From Acidobacteriota bacterium (GTDB lineage Bacteria; Acidobacteriota; Blastocatellia; Chloracidobacteriales; JADJPF01), in assembly GCA_016213785.1 (NCBI GenBank), contig JACQZQ010000003.1:62001-126000 (forward strand): DNA of 64,000 nt, in the 5' to 3' direction. Of this stretch, positions 13,041 through 30,858 are shown one piece after another; the stretch's first letter is position 1, and each line of letters starts with the position of its first letter. Under the pieces are notes generated by a model. That model saw only the letters and a list, made by a program, of their open reading frames with translations, was not told the origin of the DNA and did not search any database. Position numbers and translations under genes: made by a program.

Positions 13041-13190
13041 TTAACTAAAATACTCAAAATAACTTGGAAATCTTTTTCTATAAGGGTTTGATAGTGTTTT
13101 AAGTTTTACTTATTATCTAAATCATTAGCTGCTTAACCAAGTTTTATAATATATTATTTGTCTATTTGTCTGTCTATGTCAGGGGAAATT

Positions 13191-16100
13191 ATGTCTAGGT
13201 TAAATCTGCGTAACTTATTTTCTATAGATAACTTGCGTAAAAAACTAATAATCTCCTCGCTTTTAATAATGGCTTTTGTTGCTTTAATAATAGGTTTATT
13301 AGCTGCCTATGTAAGAAGTGAAAAGTTTAATCAATTTGTTATTTCGCAAATAAAAGCTAGTGCTCCTTTATATGGACTACGTGTTGAAATAGAAGGCTTT
13401 GGTTTTAGCTTAAATCCCAGCCAAGCAAAATTAAAAAATCTTAAAGTTTTTAATAAAAAAACAGATGAGCTATTACTTGAAACAGAGCAAACAGAGCTAA
13501 ACCTTGAAATTATTGACCTTTATGCCCTTAAACTTAAACGCAAAGTAATATTAAAAGAATTAAATCTTAAAGGCTTAAAGCTTTTTTTAGAGTTTAGCCC
13601 TAATGGTAGAAATAGTCTTATAGGCATAGATGCGCCTAATAAGAATGATTCTAGCAGTTCTAGCACTATTGAAATTGATAGTTCAGTCTTACAAATAACG
13701 ATTACTGATAGTAGTCTATCCTTAAAAGATAATATAAATAGTATTGACCTTAAGCTAGATAAGCTTGGGATAGATGCTAGATTAAAAACTACTACTCAAG
13801 TAGAGGTAAAAGTAAAAGCTGAAGGTGGACTTTCTTATAAAGATTACAACGCTAAAATAGACTCTATTTTAATTGATGGAATATTTAGCGACCAAGGTTT
13901 AGAACTCCAGCCAAGTTTTTTTGTAACCAATTTAGGGAAAATAGAACTCAAAGGAGAGCTAAAAGATTGGAAAAAACTAGAGCATAAGCTAGAAATTCAA
14001 GGCCAAACAGAAAATTTAGATGTTGCTGACCTAAAAATAAAAGGCCAAAGTGCTTTTCAAGGAAAAATTGTTGGTGATAAAAATTCATCTTGCTTAAGTG
14101 GAAACTTAAGTGTAGCTGACCTAAAAGTGGCTGAAAGTCATCTTGTAGGGTTAGAAGTCGTTAATTTAGAACTTATTACAGGGACAAGGTTTGATTTAGC
14201 TACGCAAAAAATTAAACTTGAGTCAATTAATGTAAACCCAATAAATGCAAAAAATATAGAGATTCCTACACTAAAGGGAAGTTTTTCAAATAATAGCTTC
14301 GAGTTTGTTTTACCAAAACTATCAACTAGTTCAATGACTGCACCTAAGAGCCAAATAAGTGGTATTGAGCTAAAAGATATAAACTTAAAGCTTTTGGATA
14401 AAAATTTAGAAACTAGTGTTAAACAAGCTTTAATTGCAAATGTCGTAGTCCCAAACACTAAAGTAAATTCTATAAAACTAGCTCAATTAACTGCTCAAAT
14501 AACAGGCTCTAATTATAATATAAAAAGTGACTTAGCTATATCACAAGCAATATTTAATAATATTCAAGCAGATGAGATTAATAGTAAGCTCTTTTTAGAA
14601 AATAATATCCTTACGCTTTCAAAACTAAGGACAAATTTACTAGGAGGTCAAGCTAGTCTAGATGCTGAAATTGCTTTATCTGGTAAATCAATTTCTCGTT
14701 TGCAAACTAATTTTGAACAAATTAATAGTGCTGAGCTTGGTAAATTATTCCAAAAAGAGCCTTTACCAATTACAGGATTAATTAAAGGTAACAGCGAGTT
14801 AACATGGCCTGGAATTGATTTTCTTCAAGCAAGCGGAGAGCTAAAAGCCAATATTCAAGGGCAAACAACAGATACTGATAAATTACCGCTTACCGCTCAA
14901 CTAATTGCACAAGCCCAAACTGGCAAAATAAATATTAAACCCTTAACTGCTAAATTAGGTAGCACTGATATATTTTTACAAGCAATGGTTTTTCCAAAAA
15001 CTAAGACCATTACAGCAGATTATCAGGTGAAGTCTACTAGTTCTCAGGAGTTATTTTTACTTGCTAAGAACTTAAAATTGCTTGACCAAAAAATTCTAGA
15101 CTATAAAGCTGAACTATCAGGAAACTTAATTGTTAAAGGACAATTAAATGGTACATTTGACAAACTCTTGATTAATAACGCCTTTCAAGCAAGTAATGTG
15201 GGTTTTCAAGGTAATAAATTCCAAAATCTAGTTGGTAAGCTTGAATTAACCCCTGAAGATATTAAGCTTGATATAAGTAATTTATTAGATATTCAAGGTG
15301 GTATGCTTAAGGCTACTTATCAGGGAAAAGCTAATGACCTAGTTAATACAGGTAACTTAAAAGCAGATTTCCAAGATTTTTACTTAGAACTTTATCAACA
15401 GCCTGAAAATAAAGAACTTTTTGTTGGTAAAATTAATGGTAGCGCAGAAATTACTAATCTAAGCGAAAATGGAGAGGCAAGAGCACAACTTAAATTAAAT
15501 AATGTGAAGGTTGGTGGGCAACTCGTTGATTCTGCACAAGTTGAACTTTTTCTAATAAATCAACTTGCTGAACTTACTATTAGTTCTCTAGAACTAGCTT
15601 CGGCTAAAATTAATGGTAAAGGTACTTTAAGCTTAAAAACAAAAGACTTTAGCTTTCAAGGGCAAGTTAAGGATTTAGAACTTGCTAAATTAACTACGGA
15701 TTCAGCATTAGCTGGAATAGTAAATTCTAATCTTCAAATAAATGGTAACATCAATGATCTAAATAATTTACAGCTATCTTTACAAGCTGAGTCTAAAAAT
15801 TTACAAACCCCTACAACTGAATTAGGCCAACTTTCTTTAATTGCTAAGTCTGATAATCAAGGTCGTATTCGTACAGAAATAATTTCCTATTTAATTCCAA
15901 CAAAACCACAAAAAATCTTAGCTATAATTTCCACAAATAAAACGGGTTATCCTATAGAAATAGAGAGCGAGCTATCAGAGTTGGATATTGCACTCTTAAT
16001 GGCTGCTTTTAAGGTTGATACTAAAGGAATGGTTAATAGCAAGCTCTCAGCAAAAATTGCTATTAAAGGTAATATTCTTAATAATAAAGATGAGTTTAGC

Positions 16101-19100
16101 TTGGATAACTTCCAAGGCAATATCCTTCTCACATCTGCTAATGTAAAGCTTTCTGACCAACTACTTAATATTGAAACCCCATGTAATATTACTCTTGAGC
16201 AAGGTAAATTATGTTTAGAGCGAATACGAGTTTTTAGTGATAGCTCAGATATAACTCTTAATGGTCAGCTTGCTTTAACTGGAAATAATACTTTAGAGCT
16301 TGCCACTAATGGCGCTATTAATTTGGCTCAGTTTTCTAGTTTAATCCCTAATAGTTCACTTACTGGGGTTGTGAAAATTGATAGCAAATTAACGGGGACG
16401 GTTAATAAGCCTAATTTATCTGGTAATTTAATGCTTAGCAATTTAGCTTTTTCACGCCAAGATTTACCTATAGAGTTTAGAAATGGTAATGGTTTAATTA
16501 AATTAAATAACGATAAGATTTTTCTAGACAATTTTTCTATAAGGGCAAATGATGGAGAAGTTACAAGTTCTGGACAAGTTAATCTAAAAGGTTTTGATAT
16601 TGCTAATTTACAACTAAAACTTGATGCTAAAGATATAAACTTAATTTATCAATCTGTTGCAATGACTCTAAAAGCAGATGTTTTACTAGAAGGAACTCCA
16701 GCAGATGCAGTAGTTAAAGGAAATGTTAAGGTTTTAGAGGCTATTTATTCAAAACCCTTTGATACAAGCTTATTAAATAGTTCTGTTAGTATTGATGATG
16801 GAACTAAAAGCCTTTTTTCTCCAAGGCTTGATATTAATATTGATGCTAACGAATCCATTATTGTACGTAATCCACAAATTGATACTGTTGCTTCAGCGTC
16901 AATAAGTTTAGGAGGCCAACTTACAAACCCTAATTTAACAGGTCGAATCTCCTTAGAAGGTGGGACTGTTACTCTACGTAAACAACGGTATGATATTACA
17001 CAGGGATTTCTAGATTTACCTGGAGGGATTTTAGTTCCAACCATAGACCTATTAGCAGAAGGCGAAGTTAGCACTTATAGGGTTTTTATTCGTTTTACAG
17101 GGCCAATTGATCAAATAGACTTGGATCTAGAGTCTGAGCCAAACCTGACACGTACAGAAATATTAGCTTTAATTACTACAGGTCGAACCGAGTTAGGTGG
17201 AGGAGAAAACCAAGATTTAACAACTACTGGGCTTAACACAGGGGCTAATTTAATAGCCCAAGAGTTTATTTCTAAGCCCTTTGGCCGTAAAGCAGAACAA
17301 TTTTTAGGGCTAAATCAATTTCAAGTTGATCCAGTAATTCGCCCAAATGAAAACCCTTCTGCTCGTTTAACTTTGGGTAGAGAAATTATCCCTAAGCTTT
17401 CCTTTACTTATTCAACCAGCCTTTCTAGCAGTAAAGACCAAACCATTGCACTTGAATATAAACTCTCAAACCGATTTTCTTCATTGTTTACTTTTACTCA
17501 AGGGGGTGGGACATCTACTAAAGGTAATACTAAAGATAGTGATTATACTTTTGAAATACGTGGGCGAGAGCGCTTTTCACTCAGTGGAAAAGGCAATCTA
17601 GAGAAAAACGCTACACTCTCAACTATGACTAGCTTTAAGCCTTTAAGTTTTCCAAACGCTGAGGTTATTATAGATAAACCAGATGATATAAAGATTAGTA
17701 GTGATACTCTAAGAGATTTATTACCTATTAAGCGACAAACCTTTAGTAGTCCGCTTGCTAGACTTGGACAAGAAAACCTAACTAATTATTTACAAGAAAA
17801 AGGCTATTTTTTTGCTAAAGTTACCACAAGTTGCGAGCCTTTTGATTGCCAAGGCTCAGACTTAAAAGTCCATTATAAAATTGAACCAGGCACTCGTTAT
17901 GAGGTTAGACAAATATCTATTACAGGAACAAACTTAATCTCTCCTGTTAGTGTTATTAGCCAATTACAATCAAAACAGAAAAGCTTTGTTGGCAAGTTCC
18001 CTATTTTAGGTAGTTTACCATTTGTAGGGGGATTAGCTGATGGTATAACCAGCAATGAACGATTACGCCAAGATAGCGACTTAATTCGCCAACAAGTTAT
18101 TGACTTAGGCTATCGTCAAGCTACTGTGTCTTATAACTATAATGTTGATAGCGATGGACGAGGGCTAAGAATAAACTTTAGTGTTCAAGAAGGAGCAATT
18201 AGCCGAATAAGTCAAATAGACTTACTTGGAGTAAATAGCTTAAGTAAAGAAGAATTAAGACAAGAAATCCCTATTAATTTAGGTGATCCTTTTATCCCTT
18301 CTAGACCTCGTGAAGTAGCCCAAAAGTTAGTAGATTATTATGCCCAGCAAGGCTATTTAGATGCAAAAATTGATCTAGAAATAGAACAAATGCCTAATAA
18401 TAATGTTAAGCTAATTTATCAAATTAATGAAGGATCAATAGCAACTGTTGGTAATATTGCATTTATAGGAACTGCTGGAATTAATGAAAAAGCCTTAAGT
18501 CGGTTTATTGAGCTAAAGCTAGGTGATGTAATCACCAATAGAAAGTTACAGCAGTTGCAAAAAGATCTTTATGCTACAGGGAATTTCCGAGAAATCCAAA
18601 TTCTTACAATCCCTGGAATAGGGCTAAACCCAACAGATAGACAGGTTTTAATTAAACTAACTGAAGCTAAACCCTTACTTTTAGTTTATGGGTTTGGATT
18701 TTCTAGCGATGATGGGCCAAGAGGCTCTTTAGAGTTAAGTAATACAGATATTCTAAATAGAATTAATAGCGCATCCTTACGTTTACGCTTAGGTAAACGC
18801 GAGCAAACAGTACAATTACAGTTTACCGATCAACGCCCATTTGGTAGCAGATGGTCAACTACTATTTCGACACTTTATAGCCGACTTACAGAATTAAGTG
18901 CTAATAATCAGCAAATTAGCAATGTTGATCAGACAAACTTAAATAACACAACTAATATTGGGTTAAATCGGTTCTTAACCTTTGTACAAACAGAGCGCCG
19001 CTTAACTAATCAAACTCTAATAAGATTTCGTTATAATTTTGAGATTAATAAACTGACTAATTTAGATGATACTCAATCTAATGCATTTGCTGAGACTTCA

Positions 19101-19820
19101 CGAATTACACGAATTGCTACATTATCTATTGGTGCTGCTTATGATAAGCGTGATAATCCAATTAACCCAACCAAAGGACAGTTTTTAAGCCTTGATTATT
19201 CAATAGCTTCTCGTATATTGGGCGGAAATGAATCCTTTAATAAGATTAGTACTAATTACCAGTACTACGCTAAAACAAAAGATTCTTTCCCTATTCCCTT
19301 TATAAATCGCTCTACAATAGCATTTTCTTCTAGAATAGGCTTAGCCGCACCTTTTGAAATCCGTTCACGCCGAGGGGATGGAATTATTAGAGATTCTGAT
19401 AGGCTTTTACCCTTTAGTGAGCGGTTTCGTAGTGGAGGCGCTACCACCTTGCGAGGTTTTGAATTTGAACAAGCAGGGCCACAGGCTATTACCGAAGTAG
19501 GAAATAATGCTGCACGCTTAATTCCCTTAGGCGGAGATGCTTTAGTAGTGTTTAATTTAGAACTTCGTTATCCAATTTCTAGACGCTTACAGCTAGTCCC
19601 ATTCTATGATTTAGGTAATGTTTTTTCTCGTGTTAAGGATATTAGTTTTCGTAAAATGACTAACACTCTAGGCTTAGGTTTAAGGTTTAATACTCCTATT
19701 GGCCCAATAGGGGTTGATTATGGTTATTTACTTGACCCACAATCCTTTACTACTCCTAATGGTGGAATTTTAAGGCAACGCCAAGGAGTTATACATATTA
19801 AATTTGGGCAGTCTTTCTAA
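13191..19820 (+). CDS. TamB-TamA (Omp85) fusion protein
   Basis: One 2209-codon frame joins two proteins normally encoded separately. The ATG at 13191 follows AGGGGA; an upstream TTG and ATG in frame are less likely. An N-terminal membrane helix (about 22-45) is followed by more than 1200 residues of AsmA/TamB-like beta repeats and a TamB C-terminal (DUF490) domain: GRISLEGGTVTLR, ITQGFLDLPGG, YRVFIRFTGPIDQIDLDL, ILALITTGR and LTLGREIIPKLSFTYS (residues about 1250-1450). From about residue 1500 come POTRA-like modules (NYLQEKGYFFAKV, YRQATVSYNY, LVDYYAQQGYLDAK), then an Omp85 barrel with FRSGGATTLRGFEFEQAGP and a C-terminal Phe as expected for outer-membrane insertion. The polypeptide would therefore span from inner to outer membrane and serve outer-membrane protein or lipid transport and assembly. 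Confidence 0.92.
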   Translation: MSRLNLRNLFSIDNLRKKLIISSLLIMAFVALIIGLLAAYVRSEKFNQFVISQIKASAPLYGLRVEIEGFGFSLNPSQAKLKNLKVFNKKTDELLLETEQTELNLEIIDLYALKLKRKVILKELNLKGLKLFLEFSPNGRNSLIGIDAPNKNDSSSSSTIEIDSSVLQITITDSSLSLKDNINSIDLKLDKLGIDARLKTTTQVEVKVKAEGGLSYKDYNAKIDSILIDGIFSDQGLELQPSFFVTNLGKIELKGELKDWKKLEHKLEIQGQTENLDVADLKIKGQSAFQGKIVGDKNSSCLSGNLSVADLKVAESHLVGLEVVNLELITGTRFDLATQKIKLESINVNPINAKNIEIPTLKGSFSNNSFEFVLPKLSTSSMTAPKSQISGIELKDINLKLLDKNLETSVKQALIANVVVPNTKVNSIKLAQLTAQITGSNYNIKSDLAISQAIFNNIQADEINSKLFLENNILTLSKLRTNLLGGQASLDAEIALSGKSISRLQTNFEQINSAELGKLFQKEPLPITGLIKGNSELTWPGIDFLQASGELKANIQGQTTDTDKLPLTAQLIAQAQTGKINIKPLTAKLGSTDIFLQAMVFPKTKTITADYQVKSTSSQELFLLAKNLKLLDQKILDYKAELSGNLIVKGQLNGTFDKLLINNAFQASNVGFQGNKFQNLVGKLELTPEDIKLDISNLLDIQGGMLKATYQGKANDLVNTGNLKADFQDFYLELYQQPENKELFVGKINGSAEITNLSENGEARAQLKLNNVKVGGQLVDSAQVELFLINQLAELTISSLELASAKINGKGTLSLKTKDFSFQGQVKDLELAKLTTDSALAGIVNSNLQINGNINDLNNLQLSLQAESKNLQTPTTELGQLSLIAKSDNQGRIRTEIISYLIPTKPQKILAIISTNKTGYPIEIESELSELDIALLMAAFKVDTKGMVNSKLSAKIAIKGNILNNKDEFSLDNFQGNILLTSANVKLSDQLLNIETPCNITLEQGKLCLERIRVFSDSSDITLNGQLALTGNNTLELATNGAINLAQFSSLIPNSSLTGVVKIDSKLTGTVNKPNLSGNLMLSNLAFSRQDLPIEFRNGNGLIKLNNDKIFLDNFSIRANDGEVTSSGQVNLKGFDIANLQLKLDAKDINLIYQSVAMTLKADVLLEGTPADAVVKGNVKVLEAIYSKPFDTSLLNSSVSIDDGTKSLFSPRLDINIDANESIIVRNPQIDTVASASISLGGQLTNPNLTGRISLEGGTVTLRKQRYDITQGFLDLPGGILVPTIDLLAEGEVSTYRVFIRFTGPIDQIDLDLESEPNLTRTEILALITTGRTELGGGENQDLTTTGLNTGANLIAQEFISKPFGRKAEQFLGLNQFQVDPVIRPNENPSARLTLGREIIPKLSFTYSTSLSSSKDQTIALEYKLSNRFSSLFTFTQGGGTSTKGNTKDSDYTFEIRGRERFSLSGKGNLEKNATLSTMTSFKPLSFPNAEVIIDKPDDIKISSDTLRDLLPIKRQTFSSPLARLGQENLTNYLQEKGYFFAKVTTSCEPFDCQGSDLKVHYKIEPGTRYEVRQISITGTNLISPVSVISQLQSKQKSFVGKFPILGSLPFVGGLADGITSNERLRQDSDLIRQQVIDLGYRQATVSYNYNVDSDGRGLRINFSVQEGAISRISQIDLLGVNSLSKEELRQEIPINLGDPFIPSRPREVAQKLVDYYAQQGYLDAKIDLEIEQMPNNNVKLIYQINEGSIATVGNIAFIGTAGINEKALSRFIELKLGDVITNRKLQQLQKDLYATGNFREIQILTIPGIGLNPTDRQVLIKLTEAKPLLLVYGFGFSSDDGPRGSLELSNTDILNRINSASLRLRLGKREQTVQLQFTDQRPFGSRWSTTISTLYSRLTELSANNQQISNVDQTNLNNTTNIGLNRFLTFVQTERRLTNQTLIRFRYNFEINKLTNLDDTQSNAFAETSRITRIATLSIGAAYDKRDNPINPTKGQFLSLDYSIASRILGGNESFNKISTNYQYYAKTKDSFPIPFINRSTIAFSSRIGLAAPFEIRSRRGDGIIRDSDRLLPFSERFRSGGATTLRGFEFEQAGPQAITEVGNNAARLIPLGGDALVVFNLELRYPISRRLQLVPFYDLGNVFSRVKDISFRKMTNTLGLGLRFNTPIGPIGVDYGYLLDPQSFTTPNGGILRQRQGVIHIKFGQSF

Positions 19821-20537: not shown

Positions 20538-21284
20538 TTATTCTTTTTTAGAAACAAAATCTATTAGTTTTGCCCAATCAATTTTATGATCAGTAAGAAA
20601 GTCTCTCATAAACTCTGCTGTCATTTCATTTAGTTTTTTTACATAAGCCTCTTTAAATTTTTCATCTTTTTTCTTTGCTTCAAAGTCGATTGGTTCAATA
20701 AGTTTTCGGTAAAGCTCTAAGTCTCCTGAAATAAACCCCCAAAATTCTTGCCCACAATATTTATAATAAGTTTTGTCTGGGTCAGGGTCTTGTTTAAAAC
20801 TCTGACGTTCTTTGCCATAAATACAACCGTTAACTGCAATTATTTCCATTTCAATATATTGCTTGCGTAGTTCTAGACGAGCTAGCTTAAAGTTATTTTT
20901 CATTTGCGCTAACTGGTCGCTATTTCCCCAATTTGGACCCGATTTAATTCCAACAAGAAAATATTGATTATTTCGCTTAAATTCTAAATCGATACTCTTG
21001 AATTTGGATTTAATACCTTGATCAACATTTTTTGATATAAAGATAGCAAGATTCTCTAACAATCCTCCAAACATAGTTTCTTCTTGGGCTGACAAATAAG
21101 CATCAAGTATCCCTCTAACTAAATCAGCTGGGATTTCTATATTTTTTGCTTTGAATAGATAAGGGTTTTTTCTTCTTAAGACTTCTAATAAGTTTAGTTC
21201 AAGAAGTTTACTTAATCGTTGTTCGTAAAAACGAGATACTACATCATCTGAAAGATACTGATAAATTTTTTGATAATCAAACAT
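20538..21284 (-). CDS. Type II restriction endonuclease, PmeII-like
   Basis: The product (248 residues from the preferred ATG at 21284, one base after the methyltransferase stop; a TTG at 21302 would add six) carries RKNPYLFKAKNI, LVRGILDAYLSAQEE, SIDLEFKRNN and VGIKSGPNWGN segments that I recall from PmeII-type and related restriction enzymes. The IDLEF Asp/Glu followed about 15 residues later by GIKSGPNWG is the PD-(D/E)xK core with Lys retained but Gly at the usual acidic position two before it, a variation seen in some restriction families. It cuts the DNA sequence that its partner methylates; the recognition sequence cannot be read from sequence alone. The tight methylase-then-nuclease order lets modification precede cleavage. 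Confidence 0.8.
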   Translation of the reverse strand: MFDYQKIYQYLSDDVVSRFYEQRLSKLLELNLLEVLRRKNPYLFKAKNIEIPADLVRGILDAYLSAQEETMFGGLLENLAIFISKNVDQGIKSKFKSIDLEFKRNNQYFLVGIKSGPNWGNSDQLAQMKNNFKLARLELRKQYIEMEIIAVNGCIYGKERQSFKQDPDPDKTYYKYCGQEFWGFISGDLELYRKLIEPIDFEAKKKDEKFKEAYVKKLNEMTAEFMRDFLTDHKIDWAKLIDFVSKKE

Positions 21285-21285
21285 A

Positions 21286-22128
21286 TTAAATTGTAGACTC
21301 AAATAAACTAAGTTGGGATGATTCTTTTTCTAACAAAGATTTTGCTAACTGAAAATATTGCTCTGAAATTTCAATGCCTAAATAATGTCGGGACAACTGT
21401 ATTGCTGCTAAAGCAGTTGTTCCTGAGCCTAAAAATGGGTCTAAAATAATATCTCCAGGTTGGCTAAAAAGATTAATAAACCATTTAGGTAGATCTATTG
21501 GAAAAGCTGCACTATGGGCTTTATTAGCACATTCTGTTGCTAAGTAAAGTACATTTGTAGGGTAAACTTTGTCTCTTCCAACCCAATTACTAACATTCTT
21601 TCCAAACCCACTACCGACTTTAGAATTATCTCTAAGCTTATCTGTTTCACTAAGATTTTTTAGCCTAGCTTTTGCCCAATCTCCTACAGGAACCATCACA
21701 GAATCTTGATACATATTAAATTGCTTGCTTTTATTAAATTGTAGTAATCTTTCCCAGGCATCCCTAAAACGATTAGGCCATTTTCCAGGATGACAATTTT
21801 TCTTATGCCAGATAAATTCCTCTGTCCATAACCACCCCTGCTTTCTCATAGCCAGAATTAGTTCTAAAACATAAGTATGCCGCTGTGCATTAACTACCTT
21901 TTCTTTAATATTAATTATAAAAGTGCCTGTTGGTTTAAGTACTCTAAAAAGCTGTTCAGAAATTGGTAAAAACCATTCTACATAGGCATCAGGAGCAATT
22001 CCTCCATAACTATTAGCTCGTTGATCTGCATAAGGTGGAGAGGTAATTATTAGATCTACAAAAGAGTTAGGGCAACTAGACAATATTTCTAAACAATCTC
22101 CTTGATAAATAGAATCTTTGAGTAACAT
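21286..22128 (-). CDS. Site-specific DNA methyltransferase (SPPY type, probably N4-cytosine)
   Basis: The 280-residue enzyme transfers a methyl group from SAM to an exocyclic amino group within its DNA target. The catalytic motif IV is TSPPYAD (about residues 29-35), typical of N4-cytosine enzymes, although some N6-adenine enzymes share it. The SAM-binding motif I DPFLGSGTT lies near the C-terminus, and the order catalytic-then-SAM defines the beta class. LFRVLKPTGTFIINIKE and GIEISEQYFQLA are the expected flanking motifs. A clean AGGAG ribosome site precedes the ATG. It is the first gene of a two-gene restriction-modification operon and protects host DNA from the nuclease that follows. Confidence 0.92.
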   Translation of the reverse strand: MLLKDSIYQGDCLEILSSCPNSFVDLIITSPPYADQRANSYGGIAPDAYVEWFLPISEQLFRVLKPTGTFIINIKEKVVNAQRHTYVLELILAMRKQGWLWTEEFIWHKKNCHPGKWPNRFRDAWERLLQFNKSKQFNMYQDSVMVPVGDWAKARLKNLSETDKLRDNSKVGSGFGKNVSNWVGRDKVYPTNVLYLATECANKAHSAAFPIDLPKWFINLFSQPGDIILDPFLGSGTTALAAIQLSRHYLGIEISEQYFQLAKSLLEKESSQLSLFESTI

Positions 22129-22199: not shown

Positions 22200-23849
22200 C
22201 TATTGAGACAAATATTTAGAATCATTGCCAATATAATAAATCCAGATTTTTCCATAAGGTGTATCAGGAATTTCTACCATCAAACTAATTTTTCTTTTAG
22301 CATTTTCTCCTAGGTCTTCGGCTAGGGCAAAAAGCTTTCTTTTCTGACGCTTATCACAAATAAAAGCATATTGTTCTTGTGGAAATTCTCCAGTTAAAAC
22401 TTGCTTGGTTAAACGACGAGAAAAAGCTCTATAATCATCACGTCCTTTTATTGCAAATAAATGCCAATAGTTAGGAATACCTATAGGTACTAAATCAGGA
22501 CTAACATTTTTATATAAATCGCTCACTAGCTGGTTATACTTAGTAGGCTCAAGAGTAAGTAAATATTTTTGATATTTATAAACTAATATTGCTGCTCCAC
22601 TTAAGTAAATAAAGGCTAACACTCCTATTAAAAGTAAAATAGCACGAGACACTAGAAGCTTTTCATCATAGAGTTCTTCTTTACTTTCTATAGAGAAAAA
22701 CTTTCTTAGTTCTGGTGTCCAAGAAACTATTTTCCAAAAGAGTGATGCTCCCATAATCCCTATAGCTAAAGCAAACCAGCTTGTTAAATGTGGTAAATAG
22801 GAATGAGTCTTATTACTAACTTGTGTAGCAAAAAATACTGCTGTCCATAAAATTGCTGTAAATGAAAAAATATAAGGAGTTGTATTTAAGGGCTGTTTTT
22901 GTAAAATTTGTTTTGTAAGGGAAAATAATAGGTAAAGTAATGCTATGATTGTAAAGGCTTTAAAAAATATTACAGCTTGATTAGTAGTCATAAACATTGC
23001 ACCATCATCCCAAGCTAAATAGCGTTTTGGCTCAGCTAAAATATTTGCCCATATTCCTGAAGAAGTCATCCCCTTAGTTCGTCCCTTAGCAAAGGTATTC
23101 CATTGAGCTAAGTAGACTTCTTTATTTATATAGCAATAGATGGCATAGGGTAGGGCAATAATATTTATGCTAACTGCGACTATCCAAGGCTCTAGCTTAA
23201 TTATCATTCGCCAACCATAGTCAATAAAAAGCCAAATTGCTAAAAGGATGATTATGTATAATCCATTAAGGTGAGAAAGTGCTGAAAGAGGTGCAAGCAA
23301 GCCTGAAATAAAGAGCCAAATACGAGCATGATTAACATTTGTTGGTAAAAGATATTTTGCTTTTAAGTAGGAAAACGTAGCTGCTAAAGCAAAGAAAATA
23401 GAAGTAAAGTCATTACGCAAAAACCTGCTGCCAGTAAAATAGTTGTTGTCACAAACTAAAAATGTAATTGCAATGATTGCCGCAACTCTACCTCCCCAAA
23501 ATCGGCCAATTAAATAAACTAAAAGTAGTACCCCTGAACTTAAAGTTAAATTAAAAAGTCTTGCTTGCAGCATCCCAAAACCAAAGCACTTAAACCAAAG
23601 TGCTAAGAGATAAGTAAAAACAGGGTCGGTAAAAATTCTTTCTCCTAATTCATTCCCAAAATGCCTAAACATAGGCATAGCCATTTGGCCTGTTTTAAGT
23701 ATTTCAAATGCTGGTTGCATTAGCCAAGGTTCATCTTTCCAAGGCGCGGGATGAAAAGAGATTTTTTGTGCAGCTAAGAGAAAAAATCCTCCTATAACTA
23801 AACTTACTAGTAGGATTTCGATTAGTAAATCTCGATGCAAAAACTTCAT
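22200..23849 (-). CDS. GT39/ArnT-like membrane glycosyltransferase
   Basis: The 549-residue protein has one N-terminal transmembrane helix followed by the WKDEPWLMQPAFEILKTG segment with the Asp-Glu pair typical of the first periplasmic loop in ArnT/PMT-type (GT-C) enzymes, then about ten further hydrophobic helices (for example residues 90-125, 175-235, 290-340, 400-425) and a C-terminal soluble domain of about 110 residues. Such enzymes take a sugar from a polyprenyl-phosphate donor and attach it to a periplasmic acceptor. It is the last gene of a five-gene minus-strand cluster with an EamA-type flippase candidate, DegT aminotransferase, ArnC-like transferase and methyltransferase, nine bases after the methyltransferase. 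Acceptor (lipid A, glycan or protein) is unknown. Confidence 0.85.
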   Translation of the reverse strand: MKFLHRDLLIEILLVSLVIGGFFLLAAQKISFHPAPWKDEPWLMQPAFEILKTGQMAMPMFRHFGNELGERIFTDPVFTYLLALWFKCFGFGMLQARLFNLTLSSGVLLLVYLIGRFWGGRVAAIIAITFLVCDNNYFTGSRFLRNDFTSIFFALAATFSYLKAKYLLPTNVNHARIWLFISGLLAPLSALSHLNGLYIIILLAIWLFIDYGWRMIIKLEPWIVAVSINIIALPYAIYCYINKEVYLAQWNTFAKGRTKGMTSSGIWANILAEPKRYLAWDDGAMFMTTNQAVIFFKAFTIIALLYLLFSLTKQILQKQPLNTTPYIFSFTAILWTAVFFATQVSNKTHSYLPHLTSWFALAIGIMGASLFWKIVSWTPELRKFFSIESKEELYDEKLLVSRAILLLIGVLAFIYLSGAAILVYKYQKYLLTLEPTKYNQLVSDLYKNVSPDLVPIGIPNYWHLFAIKGRDDYRAFSRRLTKQVLTGEFPQEQYAFICDKRQKRKLFALAEDLGENAKRKISLMVEIPDTPYGKIWIYYIGNDSKYLSQ

Positions 23850-23857
23850 AATATAAA

Positions 23858-24481
23858 TTATGTCCGGTAGGTATAAATCGTAAACTCATAAAGCGGATAG
23901 TCGTGACGAAGATTAACACGACGGCTTAAATTATGTCGGCAGAAGTTAAAATAAAATGTAGGGTCTGCATAATAAAGCCGATCAACCCGAAAATCTACTT
24001 GGTCAGTCATCATATTAAAAGCTAGGCCAAATCTAGCATATTGATAGATCCTAGCTATCATATTTTGACAAAACTCTGACCATTCTTTATCGCTATTATT
24101 TGCACGCAAGTGAAATAGACCACAACAAATTACATAATCAAAAAGTGGTTTAGTTGGTGGAGGTTCACTTAAAATATCTAACAGGGCAAATTCAGCTTGA
24201 GGAAGTCGTTTGCTAGCAGTTGAGATCATTCCTGGCGTTATGTCTATTCCTTTATAGTGTTTGGGTTTAAGGTCATTTTCCTCTAAGAAATTATAAAAAT
24301 GACCAACTCCACAAGCTACATCAAGTATACTTTTTTCTTTAAGTGGAGCAATTTGGCTAAGAATTTCAAAGCGTTTATATTGCGATTCTTGCCCGTTATA
24401 ATCAACACCTTGGGCTGAATCACCGTGTTTAGATAAACAATTTTCAAAATAATCTATGACGTTCTGTTTTAGTTGCTGCAT
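23858..24481 (-). CDS. Class I SAM-dependent methyltransferase in sugar-modification cluster
   Basis: The 207-residue product has the Rossmann SAM-binding motif ILDVACGVGHFYNFL (about residues 48-62), acidic loop GIDITPGMI and the post-core FDYVICCGLFHL. Length and order fit a stand-alone class I methyltransferase. It starts inside the end of the upstream ArnC-like gene (38-base overlap) and is followed after nine bases by the GT39 gene, so it is translationally coupled to both. By context it probably methylates the sugar or the nucleotide- or lipid-linked intermediate made by this cluster, perhaps the amino group installed by the DegT enzyme; the target is inference. Confidence 0.85.
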   Translation of the reverse strand: MQQLKQNVIDYFENCLSKHGDSAQGVDYNGQESQYKRFEILSQIAPLKEKSILDVACGVGHFYNFLEENDLKPKHYKGIDITPGMISTASKRLPQAEFALLDILSEPPPTKPLFDYVICCGLFHLRANNSDKEWSEFCQNMIARIYQYARFGLAFNMMTDQVDFRVDRLYYADPTFYFNFCRHNLSRRVNLRHDYPLYEFTIYTYRT

Positions 24482-25445
24482 AAGAATCCTGAGTTAAATC
24501 TGGTTGACTTGAGTAAATCTCCCCAATTACATAGTAAGGGCGGCCTTTTAATTCTCTATAAATTCTTGCAATATATTCTCCAATAATCCCTAAAAAAAGT
24601 AATTGAATACCTGCTAAAAAAGTAATTCCAACAAATAATGATGTATAACCTTCAACGCTAACCCCACCAAGAACACGTAGGATTGCCATATAAGTGGCTA
24701 AAATAATACTTGCTAGTGCAAGTAGCGAACCAGCAATGCTAGCAGCACGCAAAGGAAAATCAGAAAAACCAATTAACATATCTAAGGTTAGATATAAGAG
24801 CTTCCATATGTTGTATTTAGATTCGCCTGATACTCTGTTGTCATGTCTAACTACAACCCCAGAATGAGAAAACCCAAGCCAGAGCATCATTATAGAAGTA
24901 TCATATTGCTGTTCTTTAATATTATTAAGGGTTTGGGCTACTTTGCGGTGAATAATACGAAATCCGCTAATCATATCAGAAGGGACTTTAACCCCTAGCA
25001 TTTTTTCTGTTAGCCAAATAACAAAATTTGAGCCAAACATTCGCCATCCAACGTCTTCACGACCTGCACGAATTCCATAAACAACATCAATACCTTCAAG
25101 GAATTTTTCATAAAGTGGAATAATTTCCTCTGGAGGGTTTTGCAGGTCTGCATCAATTAAAACTATTGCTTCGCCTTTCACACGATGAAGTGCTGCAACA
25201 ATTGCTGGGTGTTGACCAAAATTACGAGCTAGTTTTATTATAGTAACTTGGCTATCTTTTTCTTGAATTTTTTGAAGAGTTTTTAAGCTATTATCTGAAC
25301 TCCCATCATCAACAAAGAAAATTTCATAAGGCTTACCTATATTTGTTAGAGTTGTTGTTAATCGCTTATGTAGCTCTAACAAATTATCTTCTTCATTAAA
25401 AACAGGGACAATTATAGAGATTGCAATTTGACTTTGTAAAAACAT
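24444..25445 (-). CDS. ArnC/GtrB/DPM1-like polyprenyl-phosphate glycosyltransferase (GT2)
   Basis: The 333-residue enzyme has the GT2 nucleotide-sugar fold: SIIVPVFNEEDNL (about 9-21), FFVDDGSSDNS, KLARNFGQHPAI, the metal-binding DADLQNPPEE, SGFRIIHRKV, and two C-terminal transmembrane helices (about 230-255 and 265-295) followed by GEYIARIYRELKGRPYYVI. This exact plan is that of ArnC, GtrB and bactoprenol-linked transferases, which load a sugar on undecaprenyl phosphate at the inner face of the cytoplasmic membrane. It is seven bases downstream of the DegT gene and overlaps the methyltransferase start. The sugar is not known; an aminosugar is suggested by the upstream aminotransferase. Confidence 0.9.
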   Translation of the reverse strand: MFLQSQIAISIIVPVFNEEDNLLELHKRLTTTLTNIGKPYEIFFVDDGSSDNSLKTLQKIQEKDSQVTIIKLARNFGQHPAIVAALHRVKGEAIVLIDADLQNPPEEIIPLYEKFLEGIDVVYGIRAGREDVGWRMFGSNFVIWLTEKMLGVKVPSDMISGFRIIHRKVAQTLNNIKEQQYDTSIMMLWLGFSHSGVVVRHDNRVSGESKYNIWKLLYLTLDMLIGFSDFPLRAASIAGSLLALASIILATYMAILRVLGGVSVEGYTSLFVGITFLAGIQLLFLGIIGEYIARIYRELKGRPYYVIGEIYSSQPDLTQDSYAATKTERHRLF

Positions 25446-25452
25446 TTTATTT

Positions 25453-26580
25453 TTATTTCTTAAAAATTTTTCTCACAGTTTCTATTATATAATTAACTTC
25501 CTCATCTGTGAGTTTAGAATAAAGTGGTAAAGTAATAGTGCTACTACCAATTCTTTCTGCAACAGGAAAACTTCCAGGTAAAAAGCTGTACTCTTCTTTA
25601 TAAAACTTTAATAAGTGAATTGCTCGGTAATTTACTGCAACATTAATTCCTGCTGATTGGAGTTCAAACATTTTTTCATCTCGTACTTTAGGATCAACCC
25701 AAATAGTAAATAGATGACGAGCGCTTTTAGTATTAGGCAGTACTTTAGGGTAGCTTACTCCTGGTAAATCCATAAAAGCTTTTTCATAACGTTGACAAAT
25801 TTCTTCTCTACGAGATAAATATTCTTCAACCCTTGCAAGTTGTGGAATTAATAATGCTGCTTGAACATTACTTAAATTATATTTCCAGCCTAGTAATTCC
25901 ATATCCCAATGTTGATAACGACCATGATAGCGATCAGCAGCAGAACGACTCATTCCATGAAGTGAGAGTTTACGAAGTAATTCGTCTAAGTTTTTATCTC
26001 TAATACCGATTGCTCCGCCTTCACCACAAGTTATACTTTTAGTTGCATAAAAGCTAAAACAAGCAGCATCGCCAAGTTGACCAGGGCGATAGCCATCACG
26101 AACACTTTCTAGGGAGTGTGCCGCGTCTTCTATTATTTTAAGCTCATATTTATCAGCTATTTGCCTTAGTGCTTTCATATCGCACATATGCCCATAAAGA
26201 TGTACAGGTAAAATAGCTTTAGTTTTATCTGTAATAGCTTTTTCAGCTAAATTAACGTCTAAATTACCTGTTGTTGGTTCTACATCAACAAAAACAGGCT
26301 TTGCTCCTGCGTGTAAAATAGTGTTAGCTGTAGCAATAAAAGTAAGAGGAGTTGTTATAACTTCATCGCCTGGGCCAATGTTTAAGGCTAGTAGGGCTAA
26401 ATGTAGTGCAGCCGTACAACTCATTAACCCAATAGTTGAAGCAATACCTAAGTAACTTGCTAGGTTTTTTTCAAACTCATAAGTTAGTTCTCCAGTTGTA
26501 AGAAAAATTGAATCTAGTGCGCTTAACAGTTTTTCTTTTTCAGCCTTGCCAATATTATGACGATAAAACTCTATTTTCAT
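25453..26580 (-). CDS. DegT/DnrJ/EryC1/StrS (ArnB-like) sugar aminotransferase
   Basis: The 375-residue PLP enzyme transfers an amino group, usually from glutamate, to a keto group on a nucleotide-linked sugar. Family marks are GLMSCTAALHLAL, GDEVITTPLTFIATAN, FVDVEPTTGNLD, IEDAAHSLESV, the Schiff-base Lys in SFYATKSITCGEGGA, and the MELLGWKYNLSNVQAALLIPQL segment. It is close in length and layout to ArnB. Four bases separate it from the small EamA-type gene upstream and seven from the ArnC-like gene downstream, so it belongs to a tight cluster. Because no sugar dehydrogenase/decarboxylase (ArnA) is near, its keto-sugar substrate must be made elsewhere in the genome. Confidence 0.92.
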   Translation of the reverse strand: MKIEFYRHNIGKAEKEKLLSALDSIFLTTGELTYEFEKNLASYLGIASTIGLMSCTAALHLALLALNIGPGDEVITTPLTFIATANTILHAGAKPVFVDVEPTTGNLDVNLAEKAITDKTKAILPVHLYGHMCDMKALRQIADKYELKIIEDAAHSLESVRDGYRPGQLGDAACFSFYATKSITCGEGGAIGIRDKNLDELLRKLSLHGMSRSAADRYHGRYQHWDMELLGWKYNLSNVQAALLIPQLARVEEYLSRREEICQRYEKAFMDLPGVSYPKVLPNTKSARHLFTIWVDPKVRDEKMFELQSAGINVAVNYRAIHLLKFYKEEYSFLPGSFPVAERIGSSTITLPLYSKLTDEEVNYIIETVRKIFKK

Positions 26581-26584
26581 TCTT

Positions 26585-26950
26585 TTATTGTGACCTCGAA
26601 ATCAAATAAACTCCTAGGCAAATTGCTAAAATACCTAATATACGAGTTAAGTTTATTTGTTCTTGAAAAATAATTGCTGAGAAAATCATTACAAAAACAA
26701 AATTTAGGCTAGTAAAAGGATAAGCAAAACTTAGTTCTAAACGAGATACTGCAAAAATCCAAGAAAGTGATGCAACAAAGGCTAAAAAAAAGCCTCCAAT
26801 AATATAAAAATTTAGCATTGCTTTTACTAGAAATACTGTACCTTCTTGCAGTGTAGCGGGCATTTCGCCCAATGAGTTAGTAGCGTGTTTAAACATTAGC
26901 TGTCCAACAACTGTACATAAAATAGTAATAAAAATTGCTAAATAAGTCAT
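26585..26950 (-). CDS. Small four-helix EamA/SMR-type transporter (ArnE/ArnF-like flippase candidate)
   Basis: The 121-residue protein consists of four hydrophobic helices (about 1-20, 45-68, 73-95, 100-117) with GQLMFKHA near the start, SFAYPFTSLNFVFV in the third helix and GILAICLGVYLI in the fourth, the pattern of half-size EamA proteins. In the arn pathway ArnE and ArnF are such proteins and are thought to flip the lipid-linked aminosugar to the periplasmic side. Only one is present here, so it would act as a homodimer or with a partner elsewhere. It is the first gene of the cluster. Confidence 0.8.
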   Translation of the reverse strand: MTYLAIFITILCTVVGQLMFKHATNSLGEMPATLQEGTVFLVKAMLNFYIIGGFFLAFVASLSWIFAVSRLELSFAYPFTSLNFVFVMIFSAIIFQEQINLTRILGILAICLGVYLISRSQ

Positions 26951-27054: not shown

Positions 27055-30000
27055 TTAACGCGGGTAAAATCCTGGAGCAAGCATTTCAGTTATTTGAGGA
27101 ATATTCTTAATTTTTTGACTAGACATCCAATATTCTGCAAGTCTTATAAGCTCTTTACCCTCATCACCATTAATTAATTGGCCTAGTCTATAATTAGTAG
27201 CGGCTTGATAAAGTGCCATGTCTATATCTTGAAAATTCTTTTTAGCCAGTTTAAGAAAATCGATTGCTTTATCTTTTTGATTTCTATTAAATGCTATAGC
27301 AGCAAGTAAAAGATAAGAAAAAGCATTTCCTGATGTAACTTTTTCTTTAAGTAATTTCCAAGCGTCTTGCTCGGCCATTTTTAATAAATTTTTAGGCTCT
27401 TTAGAGTTTTTAATACAAGCTAGAGCGCTTCTAGCACGAAGATGAAGCATTTCAACAACAGAGTTTTGTACTTCTAAAAGCAACCCTTTTTTCATTGGCG
27501 ACCATTGAGAATTAATTAAATTTAATGCATCTTCTGCTTTATTATCATAGATTTCTACTTGCGCTTGCCCAAGAAGTGCCCAATAATGCTGAAGGTGAAA
27601 ACCGGTTGCTGTCCATTTTGAAATTGCTATTTTAATTTGATTTCTTGCTTCTGTTGGATTATCTGCAATTAGTGGTGGCACATAGGAAAGAGCCGTTCCT
27701 AAGCCAGTAATAGCATATATATCACCTCTTTCTTCAGCTTGTTTAATAAGCCCAGGTAAGCGTTCACATAATCTATTTAATTCTCCTAGGTAAAGTAGAG
27801 CACGAGAAGAAAAAAAGTGAGAGCTATCAAGTTCCCAAGGCACTCCCTTACATTGTTGGCTTAAAACAACTACAGCTTGCTCTAGATTTTGATAAGCTCT
27901 TAGCCATTTGCCGCTTAAAAAATAAGCTATCCCACTCATCAAATAGAACATGCCATTAGTATGAGGGTTATTAATAGACAATATTATTTTTTTAGCTTTT
28001 TCTAAAAGCATTTCAGTGCGTTTTCTTGTTTTTGTTCCTCCTATGGATGAAAAACCCGCTTCTAAAATTATGGCTCTTGCAACTCTATAAGGTTCGCCTG
28101 TAGAAAGTGCTAAGAGCATATGTTTACACTGAAAATTTGCTCCTCGGATTGTATCAACTACTGCTAAACCTATGGCTGCCGACCAACAAGTATCAATCTT
28201 TAATAATTCTAAGCGAGGGATTTCGCTTTCTTTTCTTGGAGTAAATTCTAAACCTCTAAGCCTAATCTGCAAACGTTTTAGTAATAATGGAATTAAGGCA
28301 CGAAGCGGGCTACTAGCAAGTTTTAGGTTTACTGAACTAAGAACTTTACTTAATACTGATAACCCTTCATCAATTAAGCCACCAAATAAGAATTGTTCTG
28401 CTGCACGGCGTTTAAGTTCTAAAGCATCTTCTTTAGAAGAGTATTCTGCGGCTGCTAGAAAAGCTTTGGCTGCTTCTGTGCTACGACCTGCATTTACTAA
28501 AGCATTACCAAGCTTTATTTCTACTGAAGCGATTTGATAGGCTTGTTGCTGGCTAGTAAAAAGTCCTAATACTTGTTTATAGAGTTCTATTGCGTGGTCA
28601 AAAGCTAGGGCTTGTGCTGCTTGGTCGGCTCCTTTAAGAGCATACTCTGCTACTTTTTCTTTTTCTCCTGCTCCAGAAAAATGCATTGCTAAAGACTCAG
28701 GATCGGCTTGACCGCTTTGTTCTAACGCTATTGCAAGGCTGTTATGGAGTTCTTTACGTTGGGCACTTGTAAAATTTTTAAGTAGCGTTTCTCTAACACG
28801 ATCATGATAGATTTCTAGAAATTCAACTTGTTCTCTCTCTCTACGCCGAATCATATGATTAGAGCGTAAGAAAGCAAGCGCTGTTTGTTCATCGTTTTCT
28901 AAACTTGCTGCTTGTTTAGCAATACTACGAATTAAAGGCTGACCTGCTAAGGCAAGAATTTGTAATAACCGCTGAGCGCTCATAGGCAGTTGAGCCACAC
29001 GGGTTAAAATAACTTCTTCTAAGGTTAGGTCTGTAGAAATATCTGTAATATTACTAGAGTCAATTTGTGAGTACCGTATAAGCTCATCAATAAAAAAAGG
29101 GTTTCCTCCAGACTCTCTAACCATTTTTTCCATTTGCTCAGAAGAAATATTTTGTTGTGTCTCAGAAAGTGTAGAAATTAGTTCTGTTGCTTCTTCACTA
29201 GAAAGTTGTTCTACATAAATCTTCTTGAGATCAACATTATCAGAGTGTTGCAAGGAGAAAAGCTTTTTGAGTATTAAACTGCTTTCTTCTTCTTCACTAC
29301 GATAAGTAATAAGTAATGTTATTGCTAGTGGATTGGGTGGGCTAATTAATTCTGCAAGTAAAGCAATACTATCTAAATCACCCCATTGAAGATCGTCTAT
29401 AAATAAAACCAAGGGTTTTTGCCTTGCTAGTTGATTAAGTAATTCTCTTAGAGCAATAAAAGCTCTACGCCTAAGTTCTTGAAAATCAGGAAAATCCAGT
29501 ACAGGCCGTTCAATACTAGCAATTGCTGTTACTTGCATTAAAACAGGAAAAAGTCTTGCTATAAGTAAAATATCCTCAGGCAGTAAGCTTTGAATTTCTT
29601 TACTAGGTAAAGCTTTTAGGTATTGGCTAAGATTATCAACCACACTATCAAATGCTTTATATGGAACAGATTCTTGCTCATAGCAACGGCCAGATAAAAT
29701 TATAAGGTTTTTTTCTTTGTGTTTAATATTAGTTAAAAAATGGCGGACTAAAGCTGTTTTTCCCATTCCAGAATGCCCAAGAACATAGCAGATTACAGTC
29801 TTTCCTGTTTTAGCAATTTGAAAAGCTTCATAAAGCTGCTTTAAGTGAGAATCGCGCCCTACTAAAGCAGTTGGACTAGAGCCAAGTGTAATAACATTAT
29901 GGCCTTGGGTTTTAGGCTTTATTCCTAGTGATAAAAGGATTTCTCGGCTATTTGGACGATCTTGGATATTACGTTTTAGTAATTGATGGCATAAATCAAC

Positions 30001-30858
30001 TAAATCTTGTGGAAGGTCTTTAGTTAATCTATTTGGTATTGTAGGGTCATAACGTAGTTTTTCCCTTAGTACATTGCCAAATATGCTATCAAAAGGGAGT
30101 TCACCTGTTAAAGCTTCAAAGAGCATTACTCCAACGCTATACCAATCACTAGATTCTGACAAATTTTTACCAAGACATTGCTCAGGAGACATATAATCAG
30201 GTGTACCAAAAAACTCTTGCTGATTTTTACTCTCAGAGACTTGTGTTACTAAACCAAAATCTAATATAACTAAACGCTCTTCATTAGTGATTAATACATT
30301 AGATGGTTTTAAGTCACAATGTAGCTTTTCATTGTTATGTAAGGCATAAACACCTGAAACAAGTTGTTTTAATGCTGAGCGCAAGCGTTCTATATTAAGT
30401 AGTTCATTAGATAAACTAGTGGGTTTAGTTATAAATTTTGGTGGTGAATTATCTTCTTTTTCTAGGGTTTGGCGATTATCGCTTTTATTAGAAAAAGTAT
30501 TTGTTCCAATTTTTTCTGTACGAGGATTGTCTGAATTAGCATTTAATCCGCGAACATACTCAGAAAAACTTACTCCAGGAACTAATTCCATAGTAAAAAA
30601 CCACAGGTCTTTTTCTGATAAAAGCTCATAAAGAGTAACTAAATTAGGATGGGTGATATCAGCTAGAGAGCGGAATTCTTGCTTAAATCGGTAAATAGAG
30701 CTAGCTTCAGTTTTGTTTAAGAGTTTAAGCGCGACCTCTGAGAGTCGTTCTTGGTCATAAACTTGGTAGACAACACCAAAGCCGCCAACACCTAAACGGC
30801 GACGAACTAAAAAACGTTTTGTGCCAGTAAACTCTGTTCCTATGGGTGTGCTTTGCAT
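27055..30858 (-). CDS. Ser/Thr protein kinase fused to AAA ATPase and TPR-like repeats
   Basis: The 1267-residue regulator begins with a Hanks-type kinase (about 14-310): glycine loop GVGGFG, Lys45, catalytic loop HCDLKPSN (His-Cys-Asp in place of the usual His-Arg-Asp, which marks non-RD kinases not needing activation-loop phosphorylation), DFG at about 200 and GTPDYMSPEQ. A 50-residue hydrophilic insertion (about 103-150) interrupts it. A VGRDSHLKQL segment leads into an AAA_16-type ATPase with Walker A GHSGMGKT (361-368) and Walker B LVLFIDDLQWGD. The remaining half is TPR-like helical repeats. This PknK-like plan couples a signal, ATP switching and partner binding to phosphorylation. It stands alone, transcribed away from tRNA-Asn's region. 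Confidence 0.93.
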   Translation of the reverse strand: MQSTPIGTEFTGTKRFLVRRRLGVGGFGVVYQVYDQERLSEVALKLLNKTEASSIYRFKQEFRSLADITHPNLVTLYELLSEKDLWFFTMELVPGVSFSEYVRGLNANSDNPRTEKIGTNTFSNKSDNRQTLEKEDNSPPKFITKPTSLSNELLNIERLRSALKQLVSGVYALHNNEKLHCDLKPSNVLITNEERLVILDFGLVTQVSESKNQQEFFGTPDYMSPEQCLGKNLSESSDWYSVGVMLFEALTGELPFDSIFGNVLREKLRYDPTIPNRLTKDLPQDLVDLCHQLLKRNIQDRPNSREILLSLGIKPKTQGHNVITLGSSPTALVGRDSHLKQLYEAFQIAKTGKTVICYVLGHSGMGKTALVRHFLTNIKHKEKNLIILSGRCYEQESVPYKAFDSVVDNLSQYLKALPSKEIQSLLPEDILLIARLFPVLMQVTAIASIERPVLDFPDFQELRRRAFIALRELLNQLARQKPLVLFIDDLQWGDLDSIALLAELISPPNPLAITLLITYRSEEEESSLILKKLFSLQHSDNVDLKKIYVEQLSSEEATELISTLSETQQNISSEQMEKMVRESGGNPFFIDELIRYSQIDSSNITDISTDLTLEEVILTRVAQLPMSAQRLLQILALAGQPLIRSIAKQAASLENDEQTALAFLRSNHMIRRREREQVEFLEIYHDRVRETLLKNFTSAQRKELHNSLAIALEQSGQADPESLAMHFSGAGEKEKVAEYALKGADQAAQALAFDHAIELYKQVLGLFTSQQQAYQIASVEIKLGNALVNAGRSTEAAKAFLAAAEYSSKEDALELKRRAAEQFLFGGLIDEGLSVLSKVLSSVNLKLASSPLRALIPLLLKRLQIRLRGLEFTPRKESEIPRLELLKIDTCWSAAIGLAVVDTIRGANFQCKHMLLALSTGEPYRVARAIILEAGFSSIGGTKTRKRTEMLLEKAKKIILSINNPHTNGMFYLMSGIAYFLSGKWLRAYQNLEQAVVVLSQQCKGVPWELDSSHFFSSRALLYLGELNRLCERLPGLIKQAEERGDIYAITGLGTALSYVPPLIADNPTEARNQIKIAISKWTATGFHLQHYWALLGQAQVEIYDNKAEDALNLINSQWSPMKKGLLLEVQNSVVEMLHLRARSALACIKNSKEPKNLLKMAEQDAWKLLKEKVTSGNAFSYLLLAAIAFNRNQKDKAIDFLKLAKKNFQDIDMALYQAATNYRLGQLINGDEGKELIRLAEYWMSSQKIKNIPQITEMLAPGFYPR

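Follow-up and report, generated by a model that had tools for sequence, protein, structure and literature searches.

The stretch of DNA analysed here (64,000 nucleotides, referred to as the window) is part of contig C130 of an Acidobacteriota genome of 6.4 Mb, assembled in 132 contigs and about 96% complete. Between positions 26950 and 22200 its minus strand carries, in this order, five open reading frames specifying an EamA-type half-flippase, a DegT aminotransferase, a family 2 glycosyltransferase (GT2), an S-adenosylmethionine (SAM)-dependent methyltransferase (MT) and a GT-C integral membrane glycosyltransferase (Table 1). The genes are separated by gaps of 4, 7 and 8 bases, except that GT2 and MT overlap by 38 bases; the tight packing described in the initial annotation was thus confirmed. 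In Pfam, every one of the five proteins gave at least one match above the curated cut-off. All five genes are present in the same order in genome G011 of the same genus (84–96% identity, with the GT-C gene truncated by a contig end), which argues that the cluster is not a chance grouping. On balance, we consider these genes to form the export half of a pathway that makes and exports a decorated aminosugar and has seven genes in all; the other two, specifying a WbqC protein and a short-chain dehydrogenase/reductase (SDR), lie on contig C21.

Table 1. Genes of the five-gene cluster in the window
Predicted product	Position	Strand	Length (aa)	Feature
EamA/SMR-type half-flippase, ArnE/ArnF-like	26585..26950	-	121	Pfam EamA, 39.6 bits
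DegT/DnrJ/EryC1/StrS sugar aminotransferase	25453..26580	-	375	Pfam, 394.6 bits
GT2 polyprenyl-phosphate glycosyltransferase, GtrB/ArnC type	24444..25445	-	333	DAD motif at 98-100
Class I SAM-dependent methyltransferase (MT)	23858..24481	-	207	Pfam Methyltransf_25, 42.3 bits
GT-C/PMT-type integral membrane glycosyltransferase	22200..23849	-	549	Pfam PMT, 44.2 bits; PMT_2, 38.2 bits

When screened against NCBIfam, the EamA protein scored 49.1 bits as ArnF (cut-off 99) and 35.3 as ArnE (cut-off 92), and it shows weak similarity to E. coli ArnE (BLASTP, E=8e-6). The DegT enzyme has Lys181, which we take to be the pyridoxal phosphate (PLP) lysine, within the PLP-lysine motif YATKSITCGEGG; its NCBIfam matches were PseC (335 bits, cut-off 423.5), ArnB (equivalog NF008658; 277.7, cut-off 631) and WecE-type enzymes (251.8, cut-off 375). 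The nearest solved structures to GT2 are the GtrB protein sll0501 (234 bits) and next ArnC (198 bits), while its score for the ArnC equivalog NF007986 was 210.6 bits (cut-off 529). The predicted structure of MT, built from 4 sequences, indicates a class I fold at low confidence (predicted local distance difference test, pLDDT, 66.4), and four further MT models had pLDDT values of 37–44; comparison of structures gave no pointer to the MT substrate, many methyltransferase families being tied. An Asp-Glu pair near the N-terminus is typical of GT-C enzymes, and the GT-C protein possesses Asp39-Glu40, a pair kept in all five ortholog sequences examined. It had no sequence match in the PDB at E<=1.

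The two halves of the proposed pathway are joined in relatives. Genome G013 (locus L022) contains a single run WbqC-SDR-EamA-DegT-GT2-MT, and the same run in G012 (L025) ends inside MT at a contig end, the remainder of MT being on another small contig. On contig C21 of the window genome, WbqC is separated from SDR by 3 bases, and the 19 kb examined there revealed no further gene matching the cluster or, by eye, resembling a sugar gene. The C21 WbqC scores 258.6 bits for PF08889 (gathering score 21.3), and the SDR is 80% identical to that of G012 and 77% to that of G013. A WbqC-SDR pair flanked by other genes also occurs in G011, on a 5.8-kb contig apart from the five-gene run. Because the pair sits apart in both the window genome and G011, we conclude from gene order that the seven-gene pathway is split in this genus, with the GT-C gene joined to the export half.

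Distribution was followed in a sample of 14 genomes of the order, using SDR, DegT (orthologs at E<=1e-60), MT and GT-C, with WbqC searched in part of the sample. Orthologs of SDR (76–92% identity), DegT (67–88%), MT (58–88%) and full-length GT-C (33–84%) were found in the same 5 of the 14 genomes, which argues that the parts of the cluster belong together. The remaining nine had only partial matches to GT-C (26–29% identity); SDRs of the canonical RmlB-like kind, with 38–43% identity, are present in all 14. In G010, which belongs to another family, the genes are on different contigs except for an MT-WbqC pair. Several observations weaken this argument. Four of the five sharing genomes belong to one family, so that independent weight comes mainly from G010, and weaker GT-C matches at E<=0.001 occur in all 14 genomes. 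In addition, the best GT-C matches in G010, G012 and G013 lie away from the run, the GT-C gene being linked to it, among the five genomes, only in the genus of the window. This restricted linkage and the scattering in G010 would be expected if the genes were functionally separate neighbours, generic envelope-sugar genes brought together recently or by chance, and sugar genes often cluster. Such a grouping is nevertheless highly improbable, given that four of the genes share the same five genomes despite the scattering and that the cluster has gaps of less than 10 bases and one overlap. Gene content and order, the joined state in relatives and the shared distribution, as read from sequence, thus indicate a pathway that is real, conserved and split, while its substrate and decoration chemistry are predictions.

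The SDR gives the best indication of the sugar. It scored 335.5 bits as a dTDP-glucose 4,6-dehydratase (TIGR01181, cut-off 365.1) versus 52 as ArnA, and the SDRs of G012 (350.5) and G013 (334.5) likewise remain under the TIGR01181 cut-off. Compared directly, it gave 203 bits to RffG (37% identity) and 65 to ArnA. At the positions of Arg510 and Arg619 of ArnA, which we take to be the substrate-carboxylate and decarboxylation residues and which are also present in the genome's own UXS-like protein, all five SDR orthologs have Lys and His, where RffG has Lys and Tyr. In the same five orthologs Ser-Glu replaces the catalytic Asp-Glu pair. From these motifs we read the SDR as a 4,6-dehydratase of hexoses whose catalytic pair is altered, and an ArnA-type decarboxylase as the first enzyme is disfavoured by the Lys and His residues. 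Since the SDR is without the two decarboxylase arginines, the sugar is probably a 4-amino-4,6-dideoxyhexose and not 4-amino-4-deoxy-L-arabinose (L-Ara4N). RmlA-long is encoded on contig C120 (450 bits, cut-off 320), and dTDP-glucose should therefore be available.

Three features speak against a hexose: the SDR falls below the curated RmlB cut-off, its motif STSEVYG (STDEVYG in RmlB) has Ser at the position of the catalytic Asp as in ArnA and UXS, and DegT scores higher against E. coli ArnB (216 bits) than against WecE (164). As judged from these scores DegT alone is indecisive, PseC being its top profile, followed by ArnB, with ArnB ahead of WecE in direct comparison. The motif and the DegT likeness would suit a 4-aminopentose pathway close to that for L-Ara4N, with an unfused decarboxylase, no formylation and lipid A as acceptor. 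In keeping with lipid A, LpxC is encoded in the genome, and a gene judged by eye to be LpxB-like follows MT on the same strand in G013, 350 bases downstream. We regard this pathway as improbable in view of the RmlB-like SDR with its Lys and His residues, the failure to find an ArnA formyltransferase or ArnD in the genome, and a GT-C protein that barely matches ArnT.

With a 4-amino-4,6-dideoxyhexose as the probable sugar, the closest known route is the RffG-RffH-WecE pathway to dTDP-4-amino-4,6-dideoxyhexoses (Fuc4N/viosamine), which likewise involves an RmlB-type SDR and a DegT enzyme, with RmlA elsewhere in the present genome. Here, however, Asp is changed to Ser in the SDR active site, WbqC and MT are partners, and the product is thought to pass to a GtrB/ArnC-type GT2 and an SMR flippase, whereas in the RffG-RffH-WecE pathway the sugar is added to a lipid-linked oligosaccharide served by a Wzx flippase. 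A UDP-viosamine route is formed by R141 and L136 of Mimivirus, and the available part of that report does not mention WbqC (PMC9614988). The window genome contains a second DegT-SDR pair (L008, G000:C91:111417-115133), with 256.8 bits for PseC, under the cut-off, and an SDR with the motif STSEVFG, which is perhaps a separate aminosugar pathway. Two more RmlB-like SDRs (L002 and L006, on G000:C129 and C97) have the odd active-site stretches STDEVGG and SSDQIGG.

The initial annotation had seen in the cluster the logic of the arn pathway, short of arnA and arnD and with a methyltransferase inserted. The absence held in a genome-wide check, an assembly of about 96% completeness leaving room for a missed gene. 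Three proteins with a Formyl_trans_N domain (PF00551) are encoded, none fused to an SDR as in ArnA: a 204-aa stand-alone domain (PurN-like), a protein with an ACT domain (PurU-like) and an Fmt-like protein whose gene adjoins an open reading frame resembling, by eye, a peptide deformylase. PurN, PurU and Fmt are, we presume, commonly recognised by a stand-alone domain, an ACT domain and a deformylase neighbour, respectively. ArnD was not found either, the sole Polysacc_deac_1 (PF01522) protein being a 942-aa deacetylase-caspase-TPR fusion. None of the cluster proteins reached the curated NCBIfam cut-off of an arn family; for ArnB and ArnC the proteins scored were the cluster's own DegT and GT2. 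Instead of an ArnE/ArnF pair the run has one such protein, below both cut-offs, no search for a partner having been made in the rest of the genome. The description of the last gene as ArnT-like applied at the level of GT-C/PMT but did not extend to the ArnT family, for which NCBIfam gave no match at E<=0.001 and BLASTP against E. coli ArnT gave E=0.70.

Resemblance to the arn (pmrHFIJKLM) system of E. coli, a known antibiotic-resistance pathway, is nonetheless evident in the DegT enzyme (37% identical to ArnB), the ArnC-type GT2 (36% identical to ArnC), the small EamA flippase protein and the GT-C enzyme, and in a scheme of loading onto polyprenyl phosphate, flipping and transfer. The differences are the single SMR-type half-flippase, MT within the run, a GT-C protein not recognisable as ArnT, the missing ArnA and ArnD, and an RmlB-type SDR and WbqC at another locus. 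An arn cluster that has lost genes was rejected, as the search for arnA and arnD was negative and the SDR partner belongs to a different type: what had seemed an arn pathway with pieces missing likely has its sugar-forming enzyme in the RmlB-type SDR beside WbqC on the other contig. The pathway is arn-like in its export steps, yet stands outside arn. Gtr-type modification (GtrA, GtrB, GtrC/II) has the same three-step topology, and GtrB, a polyisoprenyl-phosphate glycosyltransferase, is the closest solved structure to the cluster GT2; the cluster differs in having EamA in place of GtrA and in carrying genes for the synthesis and decoration of an aminosugar.

The association of MT with WbqC was examined in 396 genomes of the phylum (MT at E<=1e-15; the draws for MT and WbqC taken as the same set). 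MT was found in 16 genomes and WbqC in 69; 14 of the 16 MT genomes also had WbqC, against 2.8 expected (Fisher p=6.6e-10, phylogeny uncorrected), and when the order of the window was removed the proportion was 11 of 13 (p=8e-8, likewise uncorrected). The two genes are no more than 2 kb apart in 12 of the 16 MT genomes, at opposite ends of the run in G013 and split in the window genome. G018, G199 and G380 also have the order WbqC-GT2-MT, and at L051 a WbqC-GT2 pair without an adjacent MT lies beside a WbqC-GT2-MT run. MT as an odd or accidental insertion was accordingly rejected, since its proximity to WbqC recurs. The tie is one-sided, however: 55 of the 69 WbqC genomes had no MT match at 1e-15, and two of the 16 MT genomes (G021 and G039) were without WbqC.

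Thirteen plasmid records matched MT, and eight of these were also among the 30 WbqC records listed, the two matches being within about 6 kb; a pair of Rhizobium plasmids among the eight share identical coordinates. An Acuticoccus plasmid, in which an annotated WbqC adjoins MT, is the ninth. Among six MT-bearing regions that were read (five alphaproteobacterial and one from Bacteroidota), WbqC-GT2-MT occurred in three and an EamA half-flippase in three. The region of Rhizobium sp. Q54 also contains rfbB, a glucose-1-phosphate thymidylyltransferase and a dTDP-4-amino-4,6-dideoxygalactose transaminase. Directly after the acetyltransferase or transferase of WbqC-MT plasmid regions, four records (L137, L138, L140 and L141) specify a protein of about 300 aa, three of which had no Pfam match and one of which matched GH32N (27.9 bits, cut-off 22.1). 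In a single scan of IMG/VR, WbqC was found on 75 contigs (L062-L136), and 20 of these loci matched MT (tblastn, 1e-5), a count that may include generic methyltransferases.

The structure of WbqC was predicted with AlphaFold2 for the G012 protein, using 45 sequences (pLDDT 95.3). Comparison with VIA-align, run over 1000 Foldseek candidates, placed BshC of B. subtilis at the top (Z 14.4, root-mean-square deviation 3.1, 219 of 233 residues aligned), followed by a glutamyl-tRNA synthetase at Z 8.3; values under 8 may have little meaning, whereas that of BshC is well above this level, and the alignment spans almost the entire model. The model thus points to a BshC fold for WbqC. The BshC reaction joins cysteine to the amine of glucosaminyl-malate. 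N-methylation of the cysteine of bacillithiol by NmbA is an earlier example of a methyltransferase that follows BshC (PMC12719100). In both pathways, then, a BshC-fold protein is coupled to a methyltransferase, though WbqC is about half the length of BshC, the proposed sugar and cellular role differ, and MT is not specifically NmbA-like (Z 12.0, with many ties). Because the WbqC model matches BshC, we suggest, tentatively and by analogy, that WbqC forms an amide on the 4-amine and that MT methylates the added group. With the same reserve, the WbqC proteins may be widespread BshC-like ligases by which the amine of a surface sugar is linked to an amino acid or related acid, the attached group being methylated by a partner MT, in at least three phyla.

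Against such a role stand a number of results. Foldseek of the WbqC model against the PDB gave nothing at E<=0.001, with unrelated proteins in the first rows by E-value, although the two most probable matches among the 50 rows listed were nucleotidyltransferases, presumably of the HIGH type. WbqC had no meaningful sequence match to solved structures, and a comparison of 45 members with Pfam at E<=10 listed no family for BshC, HMMER filters dropping weak matches; the likeness to BshC is one of fold only. On the plasmids, an annotated acetyltransferase follows directly after MT in four of the six regions, the same place is taken by an annotated "transferase" in Rhizobium sp. Q54, and in the Acuticoccus region an acetyltransferase lies upstream of WbqC. 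One plasmid acetyltransferase was checked and proved to be of the hexapeptide type; such an enzyme beside MT could acylate the amine in the role proposed for WbqC.

These acetyltransferases would also serve a simpler scheme, a plain methylated aminosugar in which MT methylates the sugar itself, on N or O, and WbqC has some other role, for example as a helper of GT2 or on another sugar. The WbqC-GT2 pair at L051 and the majority of WbqC genomes, both without MT at hand, agree with it, as does the appearance of the sugar N-methyltransferases TylM1 and CalS10, among many others, in the MT fold search. We think this scheme unlikely, as the WbqC fold is far nearer to BshC than to any other listed and MT lies next to WbqC in several phyla. 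In the literature searched, no title listed for WbqC pointed to a functional study and PF08889 was not mentioned; searches on related sugars, lipid A, BshC, and the arn and Gtr systems gave nothing on this module among the matches listed. In the passages of a paper on class I synthetase-like ligases nothing on amino sugars was found (PMC2922099).

Taking the decorated aminosugar as the favoured reading, we infer a route of six steps, including the order of the third and fourth, the nucleotide and the acceptor. The SDR from C21 would oxidise and dehydrate a nucleoside diphosphate (NDP)-hexose, perhaps dTDP-glucose, to an NDP-4-keto-6-deoxyhexose, and DegT would aminate C4 to give an NDP-4-amino-4,6-dideoxyhexose. 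WbqC, also from C21, and MT would then decorate the sugar; in the version preferred here, WbqC would acylate the 4-amine with an amino acid or another carboxylic acid, and MT would methylate the group so added. GT2 would next move the sugar onto polyprenyl phosphate, the EamA/SMR protein would flip the polyprenyl-linked sugar, and GT-C would hand it to an acceptor outside the inner membrane, which may be lipid A, another glycan or a protein. In this scheme the 4-amine would be covalently blocked instead of being formylated by ArnA and deformylated by ArnD as in the arn pathway. With LpxC encoded, lipid A is likely made, and together with the LpxB-like neighbour in G013 this faintly suggests lipid A as the acceptor. 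The earlier idea of a lipid-linked, methylated aminosugar passed to an envelope acceptor remains the best reading, while its framing as arn minus ArnA and ArnD does not survive.

Charge, antibiotic tolerance and recognition by phages or hosts depend on the aminosugars of lipid A and surface glycans. If the proposed pathway is correct, there would be a second means of dealing with the amine of a lipid-linked aminosugar, by covalent decoration as opposed to formylation and deformylation, and WbqC, a family present in 69 of 396 genomes of the phylum as well as in plasmid and IMG/VR records, would gain a testable function. It would also mean that seemingly missing steps of a pathway can sit on another contig. 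Should WbqC prove to be a BshC-like family, chemistry of the N-methyl-bacillithiol type would be carried out on polyprenyl-linked aminosugars in at least three phyla.

A scan for promoters and terminators remained at chance level (26 versus 23.8 expected, and 4 versus 3.9 expected). Directly downstream of the cluster, on the same strand (20538-22128), is a type II restriction-modification pair consisting of an EcoO109I-type endonuclease (PF14511, 256 bits) and an N6_N4 DNA methylase, which overlap by 17 bases; the methylase starts 71 bases past the GT-C stop. Upstream, also on the same strand, a 1267-aa Ser/Thr kinase fused to an AAA-type ATPase domain is specified at 27055-30858. A single open reading frame of 2220 aa at 13158-19820 combines a TamB domain, POTRA repeats and a C-terminal Omp85 barrel, and is an apparent TamB-TamA/BamA fusion.

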